A stretch of DNA of 64,000 nt, from positions 1 through 64,000 of the forward strand of contig NZ_WVID01000017.1 in the NCBI RefSeq assembly GCF_010091925.1, in the 5' to 3' direction. The stretch is from Nostoc sp. B(2019). GTDB lineage: Bacteria; Cyanobacteriota; Cyanobacteriia; Cyanobacteriales; Nostocaceae. Shown here one piece after another: positions 27,940 through 32,140 of the stretch (within the stretch, counting starts at the first letter, position 1; each line of letters starts with the position of its first letter). The notes beneath the pieces were generated by a model. It had not been told where the DNA came from and made no database searches. It saw nothing but the letters and a program-made list of their open reading frames with translations. A program made the translations under genes and the position numbers.

Positions 27940-28160
27940 CCTAAGTAGCTAGGCATAAATAAATTAAAGTTTGTAGTGAGTTAGCGCGGTCTTGGGGGTT
28001 TCCCCCATGAGCGACTAACGAACCCGGAGGGTAAGGACTTTAGTCCTGATAATCCTGTTTTGAGCGATGAATCGCTCTCTCCGAGACGCTACGCGAACAC
28101 TACGAACTAGGATTTCATTTGATGTTTCATGATACCTATCTACTTAGCGGGGCGTAGCCC
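27940..28160. repeat. Dispersed repeat cluster downstream of the giant kinase
   Basis: Holds several hairpin repeats: gggggtttccccc (about 27996-28008), aaggactttagtcctg, gagcgatgaatcgctctc, gagacgctacgcgaacac, and gcggggcgtagcccc at 28147-28161. The last unit enters the next gene and encodes its final residues and stop. Confidence 0.7.
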
Positions 28161-28575
28161 CATCATGCTTGTGGAGTGAGATACTTTCAACAACAATATC
28201 CTCTTGTGAAGAACCGTTTTCTTTAACAAAAGTCAATGTTAATTCTGAAATTTTTAACGGCTGTTCGTGGTTTTTCACCTGCTCAATTAGTTTGTCGGTA
28301 ATATCAAATAGAAGAGTTTTCATCACCCTTTCTTTGCTCGATAACTCAAAAAAACTAATCACACCAGCATAATAAGCAGCTTTATTAGCAGTTGTGAGAT
28401 TAGGTAGATTTATATAAACACTATAAGTTCCTGTTGGTCTTCCTTGGAATGACATTTCAACATCAAGCACATAACTTATTTTTGCAGCAATAAAAGTTGG
28501 ATTCAATTCAATAGGAGTAGATAGTATAAGGGTGAGTATTGTTGGTTCAGCAGTTAACTTGGTATTGAACTTCAT
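28144..28575 (-). CDS. Free-standing copy of the tyrosinase C-terminal domain
   Basis: About 143 residues. From residue 40 on it closely matches the C-terminal domain of the tyrosinase immediately upstream (28802-30376): SFQGRPTGTYSVYINLPN against SFQGKPRGTYDVYVNLPN, then YYAGVISFFELSSKERV against VYFAGTISFFELPSQKRV, then KTLLFDITDKL. This beta-sandwich resembles the C-terminal region of plant-type polyphenol oxidases, where it covers the active site. No copper-ligand domain and no obvious signal peptide are present. GTG at 28578 is also possible; an AGGAG lies rather far upstream. The final GATPR and stop come from a dispersed repeat. Either a partial duplication that lost its catalytic half or a working accessory protein. 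Confidence 0.7.
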   Translation of the reverse strand: MKFNTKLTAEPTILTLILSTPIELNPTFIAAKISYVLDVEMSFQGRPTGTYSVYINLPNLTTANKAAYYAGVISFFELSSKERVMKTLLFDITDKLIEQVKNHEQPLKISELTLTFVKENGSSQEDIVVESISLHKHDGATPR

Positions 28576-28801
28576 CACCGTTAGTCACGAAATAAATCTC
28601 CTAATTATTAAGATATCCGACTTTTAAACAAGCCGGATATTTATTTTTTAGGTTAACTTGCCATCACCAACTAAATGTATAGCAGTCGAAGTATAGGTTA
28701 GGACAATCTTGATTACTCAAAACCTTTTACTAACTGGATTTTAACTCAGCACGGGCTAAACGCCCCGCTACCGCGCTTCAGCACTCAGCACTTTGCTATA
28801 C

Positions 28802-30376
28802 TTATAGCTTACGAAGTGAAACCTTCTCAACAAAAACTTCCTCTCTCTGCTCACCATTCTTCGGGAGAAAACTCACTTTTAAATCTGGTTCTGCCTGCTG
28901 TTCACTTCTGTCTACTTGTTCAGCTAGTTGGTCTGTGATGTCAAATAGAAGAGTTTTTGTTACTCTTTTTTGGCTTGGTAATTCAAAGAAACTGATAGTA
29001 CCAGCAAAATAAACATCTTTGTCAGCCGCCGCCGCTGTATTGGGTAGGTTGACATAAACATCATAAGTGCCTCTCGGCTTTCCTTGGAAAGACACGTCAA
29101 TTTCCAGCACATAGCCGTTTTCTGGAGTAGCCAGCAAAGAGCGATCGCCCCCGCGGCTAGTAGATAATGGAACAACTACTGTTATTGGTTCATCAGTTAA
29201 TTGGGCTTTAACTTCTCTGGTAGCAACAGTTTCTTGCTGACGTACTCTTGGTTGTTGAATGCTGGCAAGCGATCGCGGACGCACTAAGATTTGATCATAT
29301 TTATCATAGGTGTAATTTAGGTTATAAACTGCCTTAACGACTTCTTCAGGAGTTTTATATTCAACTAGCTCCCCTTTTCCATCAAAAAAGGCATAGGGAA
29401 ATTCTACTGCTGCTAGCTCTTGAGGTGTCACTTGAGAACTAGCACCCTTTGCAAGTGTCCAAGATTGCCAGTAACGGTCAATACTGGCGTGATGTAGCCA
29501 AAAGATTGGGTCGAATCCAGCAGTCGGAACATCTCCCATCAGTCCTACACCTTCATCATAAGGAGAAGGGCCCTGCCAAATCGGATTAAACTTGTCTTTG
29601 GGAAAACTACCACCTATATAGCCATGCATGACATTGTGAGGTGATTGTTCAATCTGACTATTAAACACACTATAGAGAATATTTTGGTATGCCGTCCGTT
29701 TGCCATCAATCAGGCGTTGTTGTGTTGATGGCTCAATTGGTTGACCTGCATTTAGGCTTGTGAGCCTCAATTCTTCGTACAAACCGTTGGTTGTTTGGTC
29801 AGTAGGAAGTCTAAACGCTTCTGGCATCGATTTGTATTTTGCAGACTTACTGTTAGTGTAATCCCAGTAAGGAATGGCAAAATTTGGATTATCAGAAAGG
29901 TTGCGAACAACTTGTTCAAAGTGATAAAGATAGAGTCGATGCCAGGGTAGAAAGTGAACTCCAGTACCCGCTTCATGGGGACACTTCTGCCAATACTCTA
30001 GTAACTTTTTGATCTGTGCTTGTGTTTTTGGATCTAAAGATGATGCATTAGTATAAATTGGGCACAGAGAATTTTGGTCTGTAAAATCCGCAGGAATGGG
30101 AACCCCGTGAATTGCACCTTGGTAATACCAGCTAACGGGATCTGTGCACCCCGATTCTCGGATCTTTTTGAGTGCAATTTTTAGCGACTGAAGATCTTTC
30201 TGTCCACTCCGAGAGTAAACATCTTTGCGAACAAACTTGGCCCGGGGTGATCTAATTGATTGGGTTGACTGAGTTAACTCAGGTACTTGGGTAGACTGAG
30301 CATAAGCGTTGCTTGGCAGCAGTATCCCTACAGTAGCAAATATTACCAAAATCACAGCGAGAAGAAACTTTTTCAT
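28802..30376 (-). CDS. Tyrosinase/polyphenol oxidase, exported
   Basis: Type-3 copper oxidase that oxidises phenols to quinones. The N terminus (MKKFLLAVILVIFATVGILLPSNAYA) is a Sec signal peptide ending in AYA, so it acts in the periplasm or outside. Copper A region: QGAIHGVP, then CPHEAGTGVHFLPWHRLYLYHFEQ. Copper B region: HNVMHGYIGG and GFDPIFWLHHASIDRYWQSW. The three-His sets are present. The C-terminal domain (about 385-525) is the polyphenol-oxidase cap domain, duplicated in the next gene. The frame extends to an ATG at 30391, but the ATG at 30376 has AGGAAAG two bases upstream and begins the signal peptide cleanly. Possible roles are melanin-like pigment or defence; no pigment genes are adjacent. 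Confidence 0.9.
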   Translation of the reverse strand: MKKFLLAVILVIFATVGILLPSNAYAQSTQVPELTQSTQSIRSPRAKFVRKDVYSRSGQKDLQSLKIALKKIRESGCTDPVSWYYQGAIHGVPIPADFTDQNSLCPIYTNASSLDPKTQAQIKKLLEYWQKCPHEAGTGVHFLPWHRLYLYHFEQVVRNLSDNPNFAIPYWDYTNSKSAKYKSMPEAFRLPTDQTTNGLYEELRLTSLNAGQPIEPSTQQRLIDGKRTAYQNILYSVFNSQIEQSPHNVMHGYIGGSFPKDKFNPIWQGPSPYDEGVGLMGDVPTAGFDPIFWLHHASIDRYWQSWTLAKGASSQVTPQELAAVEFPYAFFDGKGELVEYKTPEEVVKAVYNLNYTYDKYDQILVRPRSLASIQQPRVRQQETVATREVKAQLTDEPITVVVPLSTSRGGDRSLLATPENGYVLEIDVSFQGKPRGTYDVYVNLPNTAAAADKDVYFAGTISFFELPSQKRVTKTLLFDITDQLAEQVDRSEQQAEPDLKVSFLPKNGEQREEVFVEKVSLRKL

Positions 30377-30391
30377 AACTTTCCTAAACAT

Positions 30392-31104
30392 TTGATCAGC
30401 AAATTAAATTACTGAGACTATTTAATACGATCTCACCAAATTTGTGTACGACTGAAACTTAGGCTTTGGAGTGCGATCGCCTTGCGGCTTCTGCTAATTA
30501 GCAAAAATACTAATCAGCGCTCCTGGAGTATGTATGAGAGACATTAGTTTCGCAGACAACTAGAAGCGTCAAACTTCCACACTTTATTACCAGCCATTGA
30601 AGAGAGAATATACGGTTACTGATTCCGTTCTCAGTTATTAATTAAACCAGGTATATGAAGCATTTTTTTTTACTTCAAAAATCTTCACAGCAGTTCTCGC
30701 TTGATTGAGGTGTGATAAGTACAGCAGATTTCAGGTAAATGAAGTACATAAATAAAACCGGAAACCCTGTAGAGACGTTACATGTAACGTCTCTACATGT
30801 GATTCTTTTCAAGACAGGAGCGCGTGGTTTGATTACAAACTATTGTGATTAGTAATACTATCAGGGGATCATCTATAATTCAGCTTTTTACCCTTGTATA
30901 TGCTGTTATTCTTTATTTACTGCAATTATTGAAAATTAACAGTTTGCTTAGTAATTTGTTAAGCAACAAAAATTATGTCAGCCAAAAGCTAGAAATTGAA
31001 TGTTTTAATATATAACTTTGGGATAATTTAATCTCTAAAAAAGATGTTTATAAGTAAAACCATAGGTATCAAACACCTATGTACGTCAAGTGAGGCTAAT
31101 AATT
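30392..31104. other. Intergenic, 713 bp
   Basis: Between the divergent tyrosinase and the small peptide gene. It holds a HIP1 octamer (gcgatcgc near 30474), the perfect palindrome at 30768-30797 and a long AT-rich leader before 31105. No protein gene is seen. Confidence 0.5.
30768..30797. repeat. Perfect 30-bp palindrome
   Basis: tgtagagacgttaca followed directly by its exact inverse tgtaacgtctctaca. The 'gtagagacg...cgtctctac' ends are typical of short palindromic repeats spread through cyanobacterial intergenic DNA. On RNA it would form a 13-14 bp hairpin with a tiny loop. It may be a dispersed element or the terminator of an unseen transcript, but no T-run follows. Confidence 0.8.
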
Positions 31105-31287
31105 ATGTCACTTCAAACCATTACATCCGAGTTGTTGAGGGAGCTATCCAGAGAAGAACAAGAGATTCTATCTGGGGGACAAAACGGCAGAGATGGAGAC
31201 AGAGACAGAGACAGAGACAGAGATAGAGACAGGGACAAAAAATACAAATGCCGTTACTGTTACGACTGTGAACGTTACCGTGACTAA
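31105..31287 (+). CDS. Small double-glycine leader peptide precursor with Arg-Asp repeats
   Basis: 60 residues. The first half, MSLQTITSELLRELSREEQE-ILSGG, has the form of a bacteriocin/RiPP leader: an amphipathic helix with E-L-x-x-E-E-Q-E-I-L-S-G-G, ending in a Gly-Gly cleavage site at residues 24-25. The remainder would be QNGRDGD, then about six Arg-Asp dipeptides, then KKYKCRYCYDCERYRD with three cysteines spaced CxxCxxC. The RD run is coded by a 6-bp tandem repeat (agagac) at about 31190-31228. TGAGG at 31091-31095, nine bases before the ATG, supports the start. Double-glycine leaders of this kind are common in cyanobacteria and are cut by peptidase-ABC exporters. None is next to this gene. 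Confidence 0.7.
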   Translation: MSLQTITSELLRELSREEQEILSGGQNGRDGDRDRDRDRDRDRDKKYKCRYCYDCERYRD

Positions 31288-31547
31288 GTTTGCAAAGCTT
31301 ACTGACTGAATAATGCAGTAGTTTTGACTTTGCAATTAGTAGGGATAGTAGGGAAGGAAAAGGCTTACAAAACTTACTCAATAGCAATCAAGTGTTGAGA
31401 AGTTTAGACAGTCTCCTGCATTCTTTTAAAACTTTCCATTAAAAGAATAGATAGCAGAAAAAATAGGGATAGCTCTTACTTTTCTGCCCTTCCCTTACTT
31501 TAAATGCAAGTATTAGTGGTGAAAAGCCTAGCGAACGTTTACCTGTA

Positions 31548-31919
31548 TTAACTTGGGTTAATCAAACTAACGATCGCCTTAACCAATGCATCTGGATCTA
31601 CTGGTTTGGGAATATGCATTTGAAACCCTGCTGCTAGTGCTTGCTGCTGATTGATTTCCCCTGCATAGGCTGTTAGAGCGATCGCTGGTACTTGTCCTCC
31701 CTGCTGAGGCGATCGCTTTCTGACTTCACGCATAAGCATATAACCGTCCGTCCGTGGCATTCCAATATCACTAACTAAAACATCTGGTATGGACTGAGAC
31801 AGTGCTTCTAATGCCTCTTGTGCTGATGACACGGCGGTTACTTCCACACCGTAGTCTTGCAAAATGAAGGTCACTAAGTCTCGAATATCTGGTTCATCGT
31901 CTACCACTAAAATTTGCAT
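31548..31919 (-). CDS. Single-domain response regulator, probable remnant of a hybrid kinase
   Basis: 123 residues forming one receiver domain: ILVVDDEPDIRD at the start, Asp51 in VSDIGMPRTDGY, and the Lys in HIPKPVDPDAL. The acidic pocket, phospho-Asp, switch residues and Lys are intact, so it should still accept phosphate. The upstream sequence overlapping its start on the same strand is the broken ATPase domain of a histidine kinase (31907-32140). This protein is therefore most simply the surviving C-terminal receiver of a decayed hybrid kinase, similar to the receiver of the kinase at 22835. No ribosome binding site is visible, and expression as a separate protein is uncertain. Confidence 0.75.
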   Translation of the reverse strand: MQILVVDDEPDIRDLVTFILQDYGVEVTAVSSAQEALEALSQSIPDVLVSDIGMPRTDGYMLMREVRKRSPQQGGQVPAIALTAYAGEINQQQALAAGFQMHIPKPVDPDALVKAIVSLINPS

Positions 31920-32140
31920 ATATAAAAGGAGTGGAGGTTAGCAATAAAGTTTGGTGTAATTCCTTTAGCTGTTTCGTTAACTTGAATTTGAGCAAAGTTA
32001 TTAAGCTGAATTCTTATCCATCCTCCTATTGGTGTAAATTTTACCGCATTGGAAAGCAGGTTACACACAACTTGCACTACAGACTGCTTGTCTTCGGGAT
32101 GAATGCACCCCAAAAATGCTTGAGTGGGACGATCATCACT
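31907..32140 (-). pseudogene. Remnant of a histidine kinase ATPase domain
   Basis: The frame is open from 32140 to a stop at 31907 and reads ...GCIHPEDKQSVVQVVCNLLSNAVKFTPIGG, IRIQLNNFAQIQVNETAKGITPNFIANLHSF. This is the N-box and start of the G1 region of a HATPase domain: compare WNLVSNAVKFTPPGG and VIDTGKGINPEFLPHVFEYF in the kinase at 22835. The Asp of the D-x-G-x-G motif has become Glu-Thr-Ala, the G2 box is missing, and everything upstream (sensor domains, HisKA) is gone. It runs directly into the receiver gene. The breakpoint lies next to the stop of the rhomboid gene. Confidence 0.8.

Follow-up and report, generated by a model that had tools for sequence, protein, structure and literature searches.

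How a double-glycine peptide precursor could be matured and exported when no peptidase-containing transporter is encoded beside it is the question raised by a short gene of Nostoc sp. B(2019), located in a 64-kb stretch of DNA (the window) that forms part of a 203-kb contig, C18, of the 7.43-Mb draft genome. The gene, named here the RD gene, encodes a leader ending in EEQEILSGG, a run of Arg-Asp (RD) pairs and a tail in which CRYCYDC occupies residues 49–55 of the precursor. A first-pass annotation of the window had described it as an orphan double-glycine (GG) precursor without an adjacent processing enzyme. The 60-residue open reading frame, the GG leader, the ribosome-binding site, the six RD units drawn from a 6-bp repeat and CRYCYDC were all confirmed in the sequence, and contig C18 yielded no match to a C39 peptidase along its 203 kb. 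The stand-alone status was not upheld: the genome holds ten further genes with the same leader together with a matching exporter, and all 11 leader genes share an element 5' of the start codon. Judged from its sequence, the RD gene is a real and conserved gene coding for a small peptide precursor, which is probably processed and exported in trans by a distant ATP-binding cassette (ABC) exporter of the type encoded on contig C14. Orphan double-glycine precursors are missed if they are sought only near exporters.

Leader, 5' element and distant exporter

A leader profile (A2) of 25 positions, built from 19 leaders of which nine come from this genome, the RD leader being one of its members, matched 11 places in the genome at E < 1e-8, while the twelfth place reached E 0.27. 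The 11 leader genes are distributed over contigs C14 (four genes), C15 (two) and C18, C19, C20, C24 and C30 (one each). Matches to the C39 domain are confined to C11, C14, C22, C25, C32, C36 and C41, and seven of the 11 leader genes (the RD gene and six siblings) lie on contigs free of them. The four leader genes of C14 are positioned directly downstream of an HlyD gene and the exporter gene that follows it, whose product contains C39 peptidase, ABC membrane and ATPase domains. The occurrence of the same leader beside a C39 exporter, together with the profile match, bears out the assignment of the RD protein to the double-glycine precursors. The precursors of the CTB family encoded on C11 were not among the A2 matches up to E 1, which indicates separate leader classes. 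Substrates of C39 exporters are recognized by a leader with a GG, GA or GS ending and an ELxxxE pattern, which the RD precursor carries (ELSREEQEILSGG), and by an exporter in the same genome with precursors of the same leader class, as found in the C14 cluster; an adjacent exporter, which is usual and not required, is the feature that C18 lacks.

The leader and the exporter also occur together across the family. Among 217 genomes of the family, the leader was found at E ≤ 1e-8 in 100 and, among the matches listed, a C14-type exporter (at least 78% identity) in 103; both were present in 96 genomes, the leader only in four, the exporter only in seven and neither in 110. The corresponding Fisher value, 2e-47, ignores kinship. 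One of the seven exporter-only genomes (G020) contains leader genes below the cut (L143 and L152), and all ten genomes in which an RD gene was read possess a C14-type exporter.

The second link is upstream of the genes. In a DNA search, 84% identity with a C14 sibling starts about 135 bp upstream of the open reading frame. The pattern N-TAGG-N6..10-CCTA-N within 95 bases was found in 53 distinct cases in the upstream regions of 120 genes, where about 1.3 would be expected from its density in long loci, family genes among them; 48 of the 53 were aligned (A4), and the conserved parts run from a TATAA-like box through the ATAGGT/ACCTAT inverted repeat and GTAAGTGAGG to the ATG. An extended form of the pattern has one match in the window and none in 100 shuffles. 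A covariance model (R1) was built from A4-type elements, including six of the 11 own-genome elements, that of the RD gene being one row. Scanned against the genome, R1 returned 12 places: the leader genes take ranks 1 to 11 (E 2e-13 to 2.1), five having been held out from the model, and rank 12 (E 7.1) falls outside the family. The element alone ranks the 11 leader genes first and therefore provides an independent route for listing the candidate substrates of one exporter type; it also lets one ask when these candidate substrates are made.

Over 40 genomes, the own genome included, R1 located 49 places, spread over 11 genomes, at E ≤ 0.001. When 26 loci outside the own genome were re-read, 24 were found to continue directly into an open reading frame with a GG leader, whereas in L144 the leader ends in SGR and in L153 the frame is broken. 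Eighteen of these loci are rows of R1; the eight independent of it comprise six GG leaders, the SGR leader and the broken frame. In four loci outside R1 (L086, L093, L094 and L097), a longer GG-leader gene preceded by the element lies immediately upstream of HlyD, and this forms a further tie between element and exporter cluster. The longer GG-leader proteins behind the element (L152 from 1050 onward; L086 581-943; L093 562-933; L094 510-833; L097 595-966) have GPNG/GPQG cores reminiscent of CTB proteins. The proposal that the exporter of the own genome is under the same element was rejected, the nearest R1 match having E 0.98 and lying 1.2 kb in front of HlyD.

By some measures, the arms of the inverted repeat change together more often than by chance. 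Paired positions changed on both sides in 22 cells, compared with 11.5 after shuffling and 0–5 in slid structures, and both this number and the covariation score exceeded all 500 shuffles, although shared ancestry inflates such counts. Three of the eight pairs showed double changes (shuffle mean 2.3, reached by 157 of 500) and nine further pair types were seen (shuffle mean 7.5, reached by 61 of 500). Since these two measures are not clearly above the shuffles, an RNA stem is inseparable from a DNA operator. Folded as RNA, 31055-31130 does only slightly better than its shuffled versions (z -1.38), and Rfam gave no matches up to E 1 in 30400-31600. In several members with Gly/aromatic cores, a longer imperfect palindrome occupies the position of the inverted repeat. 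A count of generic inverted repeats upstream (76 of 120 genes versus 31 expected from base shuffles) was noisy from short AT arms and was set aside for the element model.

Several observations weigh against assigning the RD precursor to the C14-type exporter. The 78% cut was placed at a gap (next value 74%) noticed after the search, and the Fisher value overstates the association because the genomes are related, the cut is post hoc and the counts come from the matches listed; most leader matches probably sit inside the exporter cluster, a further reason why 2e-47 is not a true probability. Another exporter could serve the RD precursor, since the genome has six strong and two weak places of the C39 family. 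On the side of the element, the TAGG and CCTA columns of A4 are invariant through selection, as the flanking conservation is not; the own-genome scan with R1 scored 150 of 4590 first-look candidates; the eleventh leader gene has an E value of just 2.1; and in the own genome HlyD has no element directly in front of it. Duplication, besides function, may moreover account for the shared 5' DNA. In the case of the orphan genes, the proposed link to the exporter is drawn from the shared leader together with the shared element. The two weak C39 matches (L015 on C32 and L016 on C25), one in a 164-residue open frame and the other in a 902-residue frame, possibly belong to untypical exporters.

In the route that we propose, the 5' element would drive shared expression of the leader genes, with transcription starting near the inverted repeat, which would then act as a 5'-terminal stem-loop or as an operator. 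The C39 domain of the C14-type exporter would cleave the precursor after GG, and the mature peptide of 35 residues (10 Arg, 10 Asp, 3 Lys, 1 Glu, 4 Tyr and 3 Cys, given the predicted cleavage) would leave through HlyD and an outer-membrane channel for an extracellular role. The features of the locus are collected in Table 1. The Shine-Dalgarno motif ends 9 nt before the ATG. The possible -10 box was unreported by a consensus promoter scan, and a sigma-70 scan listed zero promoters on the + strand.

Table 1. Positions of the RD gene, its 5' element and the parts of its product in the window
Feature	Position	Strand	Remarks
Promoter/5' untranslated region element	31030..31105	+	covariance model R1, 84 bits; last base is the A of ATG
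TATAAG, possible -10 box	31049..31054	+	similar TATAA-to-repeat distance in many A4 rows
Inverted repeat CATAGGT-N7-ACCTATG	31061..31081 (arms 31061-31067, 31075-31081)	+	putative 5' stem-loop or operator; folds as first hairpin
Shine-Dalgarno GAGG inside conserved GTGAGG	31092..31095	+	from sequence; conserved in A4
Precursor gene	31105..31287	+	ATG start, 60 residues; translation MSLQTITSELLRELSREEQEILSGG / QNGRDGDRDRDRDRDRDRDKKYKCRYCYDCERYRD
Leader	31105..31179	+	25 residues, end ILSGG; C39 cleavage predicted after GG; profile A2 E 2.5e-12
RD tract DRDRDRDRDRDRD	31198..31236	+	six RD from 6-bp repeat
Tyr/Cys-rich tail KKYKCRYCYDCERYRD	31237..31284	+	best conserved part of core

Conservation and surroundings of the RD gene

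A protein search of 60 genomes, the own genome included, gave matches at E ≤ 0.001 in 13. Three of the four congeners contain the RD gene (E 1.6e-30 or better) and one other genus matched at E 5e-19, all in frame; full-length in-frame copies are thus present in four of the five genomes of the genus, G002 alone being without the gene. The four copies are 58, 60, 62 and 62 residues long and differ by RD/KD pairs, that is, in two-residue (6-bp) steps. A profile from six members, searched against the 217 family genomes, reached E ≤ 1e-9 in 27, many via the leader alone. Reading the frames of these matches revealed an in-frame YCYxC tail in at least ten of the 217 genomes, a lower bound because the frames of weaker profile matches were left unread: four of the window's genus, Atlanticothrix silvestris CENA357, Desmonostoc vinosum HA7617-LM4 and four of genus g79. 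None of the ten members has a frameshift. The first-pass annotation had expected repeat number to vary between strains, and had made its case depend on relatives that conserve the leader and keep the frame intact; both expectations hold in the copies read.

The DNA under the six consecutive RD dipeptides consists of GA(C/T)AG(A/G) hexamers. In the g79 copies the RD run is degenerate and CRYCYDC is retained; the relatives in other genera likewise have a degraded RD run (RDEEFQRDRDRGDRR, KDEKWKDDDKWKDDKK) and a retained Cys/Tyr tail, and the charge pattern persists where the DNA repeat is lost. Residues Y47, C49, Y51, C52, Y53 and C55 are unchanged across the six rows of alignment A3. As far as can be read from these copies, the YCYxC tail is the constant feature of the core and the RD tract a charged linker able to lose its repeat. 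Of the proposed class combining an RD run with three cysteines, the Cys/Tyr tail therefore stands, while the RD run, degraded in other genera, does not define it. Pairwise ratios of nonsynonymous to synonymous substitution (dN/dS) between genera, calculated for the leader and the 8-residue Cys block, were 0.08–0.32 in the computable pairs, with five between-genus pairs not computable and synonymous sites near saturation.

The congener G002 keeps the flanks of the locus, with no listed match to query positions 1885-2745 (window 30686-31546) and 160 bp in their place, from which it appears that the RD-gene stretch was gained or lost as a unit. A dispersed repeat occupies positions 30720-30805 of the window (query 1919-2004), close to the left boundary of the stretch that G002 lacks. 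Dozens of its copies were listed for the four congeners searched; it contains a perfect 13-bp inverted repeat (30768-30797) and resembles a miniature mobile element.

The loci read place the RD gene in five different settings. In the window's genus its neighbours are a tyrosinase and a response regulator; Atlanticothrix has a glycosyltransferase there and Desmonostoc a pyridoxamine-phosphate-oxidase-like gene. In g79 the RD gene adjoins a cation P-type ATPase together with a PNKP-ligase-like gene at two loci (L161 and L164), and a hybrid histidine kinase together with a solute-binding protein at two others (L162 and L163). The adjoining P-type ATPase genes lie at L161:9058-11769 (-) and L164:993-3707 (+), Pfam having been run on the L161 copy. 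Tyrosinase was rejected as a conserved partner: it stands beside the gene in the window and in the congener loci L082-L084 and was not found in the other RD loci fetched, so that the link is limited to the genus, no orthologous neighbour common to several genera having been seen. In the window, the tyrosinase (28802-30391, -) has a C-terminal DUF7868 domain and a hydrophobic N-terminus, and its C-terminal part recurs as a stand-alone copy at 28144-28578 (-), with 48% identity over 134 residues, also seen in L082. The single-domain response regulator (31548-31919, -) is overlapped at its upstream end by a short open reading frame (31907-32113, -) that resembles a histidine-kinase remnant.

Possible roles of the mature peptide

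The cores of the siblings are barely alike and include Asp runs with CC pairs, DK repeats, GFYGGR repeats, RWGGW, WGYHG and a His run. Exact tandem repeats occur in 42 of 119 distinct cores, compared with a mean of nine and a maximum of 16 in 100 rounds of residue shuffling; the 119 were taken from fetched loci and are a non-random sample that includes near-copies. One core type that does not follow the repeat pattern is alike across loci (L017:7927-8118 and siblings in L059, L060, L105, L118 and L121; e.g. PDIIVRGQLSTKEGVSFPVDIVGIRRDS) and may be a fixed partner, because in L017 it comes directly after the exporter. A Met/Cys-rich protein of 120 residues (L018:10319-10681, -; MMMMMTESMTTEMQTCMNACMECHKMC...), about 1.5 kb from two sibling genes, matches Pfam DUF326 just at the cut-off and recalls copper-storage proteins.

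The mature RD peptide may be a surface, sheath or matrix component, a tentative reading that we place somewhat short of even. In it, the RD tract would be a hydrated, charge-balanced spacer of slippable length and the Tyr/Cys tail a sticky or cross-linking end; this combination of alternating-charge spacer and tail would, in our view, suit a structural surface component more than a pore-forming toxin. The abundance of tandem repeats over the shuffles speaks for the same role, which is favoured also because the functionally tested small GG-motif proteins met in the cyanobacterial literature searched, EbfG1-4, act in biofilm according to the sections cited below. The lack of an orthologous neighbour common to the genera beside the RD gene in the loci read tells against it. 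Extended to the whole set, the reading becomes speculative: the scattered RD, DK, Asp-run, His-run, GFYGGR and WGYHG cores could be interchangeable low-complexity polymers secreted with one leader, one 5' element and one exporter, with the RD peptide as a charge-balanced, length-tunable spacer cross-linkable through Tyr and Cys at its end, a bacterial counterpart to adhesive peptides of the byssus type. The tyrosinase encoded beside the RD gene in its own genus, which has a signal-like N-terminus, could then oxidize the tyrosines.

That the cleaved peptide is a bacteriocin, the usual label of such precursors, and kills or inhibits related cyanobacteria is unlikely: the nearest NCBIfam model is that of the CTB bacteriocin family, and the cited sections of Wang et al. 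(2011) call such clusters bacteriocin clusters (PMC3140520), but the model aligns with residues 1–29 only, at 21.1 bits against a cut-off of 32, and a charge-balanced repeat core would not obviously be amphipathic. It is doubtful to a similar degree that CxxCxxC binds metal or forms disulphide-linked multimers while the RD tract solubilizes the peptide. The three cysteines have fixed spacing and are invariant in the six rows of A3, other siblings carry His runs or CC pairs, and the P-type ATPase of L161 and L164 adjoins the gene in one of the five settings; however, 49 of the 119 family cores are free of Cys, and no cation transporter was seen in the other four settings, going by the open frames and a small number of Pfam scans.

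A signal exported to neighbouring cells or filaments is improbable. Pheromones also leave via C39 exporters, and HetC of Nostoc PCC 7120 has been put forward, in the sections cited, as the exporter of a signal for which the gene is unknown (PMC10986499). Response-regulator genes adjoin the RD gene in two of the five settings (the window's genus and, as a hybrid kinase, L162/L163), but the two are only 35% identical over the receiver domain and a low-complexity core of variable length would make a poor ligand. The receiver domain is common in these cyanobacterial genomes.

Non-functional spread of a duplicated promoter-leader cassette, with the RD run as a microsatellite, is very improbable: the tract is indeed a 6-bp repeat, the G002 neighbourhood is the same with 160 bp where the RD stretch has no listed match, and a related copy of the element (L153) heads a broken frame, but the dN/dS range, the ten members without frameshift and the charge pattern retained after loss of the DNA repeat all tell against it. 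That the inverted repeat serves chiefly to terminate transcription on the opposite strand and is no control element of the RD gene is scarcely credible, for although it is listed as a terminator-like site (31081-31061, - strand) and the downstream response regulator lies on that strand, its spacing from GTGAGG and from the ATG of a leader gene stays fixed in many loci with different neighbours.

Their shared leader and control element allow the scattered genes to be located and studied as one set. Should these genes act together, one exporter or regulator would be a handle on a whole class of hypervariable secreted peptides, for whose function in filamentous cyanobacteria no test was met in the literature searched.

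Comparison with known systems

Pfam gave no match to the RD peptide, and NCBIfam up to E 10 gave a sub-threshold leader match and two chance matches to Arg-rich proteins. The leader match is to the CTB family bacteriocins (NF038167), which the RD precursor resembles in the leader region and from which it differs by a score below the cut-off and an unmatched core; six relatives scored 17.2-28.5 bits against the same cut-off. Leader models of the NHLP and Nif11-type (N11P) were absent from the three NCBIfam matches. The NCBIfam library contains precursor models of both types.

Neither the RD/YCYxC subfamily nor the 5' element was met in the open-licence literature searched, mostly at title level, and the element is apparently new. 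HetC of Nostoc PCC 7120 offers a parallel, as described in the sections cited: a peptidase-containing exporter with no substrate gene found in its vicinity (PMC10986499), with no link shown there to the RD gene. Another likeness, drawn from the published descriptions, is that to EbfG1-4 of Synechococcus elongatus, small GG-motif proteins with a biofilm role that depend on the peptidase PteB for efficient secretion (PMC4997328): both sets combine small GG-motif proteins, a C39 exporter and several redundant members. EbfG1-3 form amyloid (PMC9981879), and RD or Tyr/Cys cores are not described for EbfG in the cited sections of these papers (PMC4997328, PMC9981879).

Cyanobacteria are well known to possess double-glycine precursors together with C39 exporters. 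Those with short-type C39 ABC exporters make up groups III-V of Wang, Fewer and Sivonen (2011), and the cited sections, which looked within 20 kb of clusters, mention distant precursors as well (PMC3140520). The RD set departs from these groups in that the RD gene and six siblings are on C39-free contigs and in its shared 5' element, which those sections do not describe. It agrees with them in its GG leader, a short C39-ABC exporter with HlyD, variable cores and several precursors per cluster.
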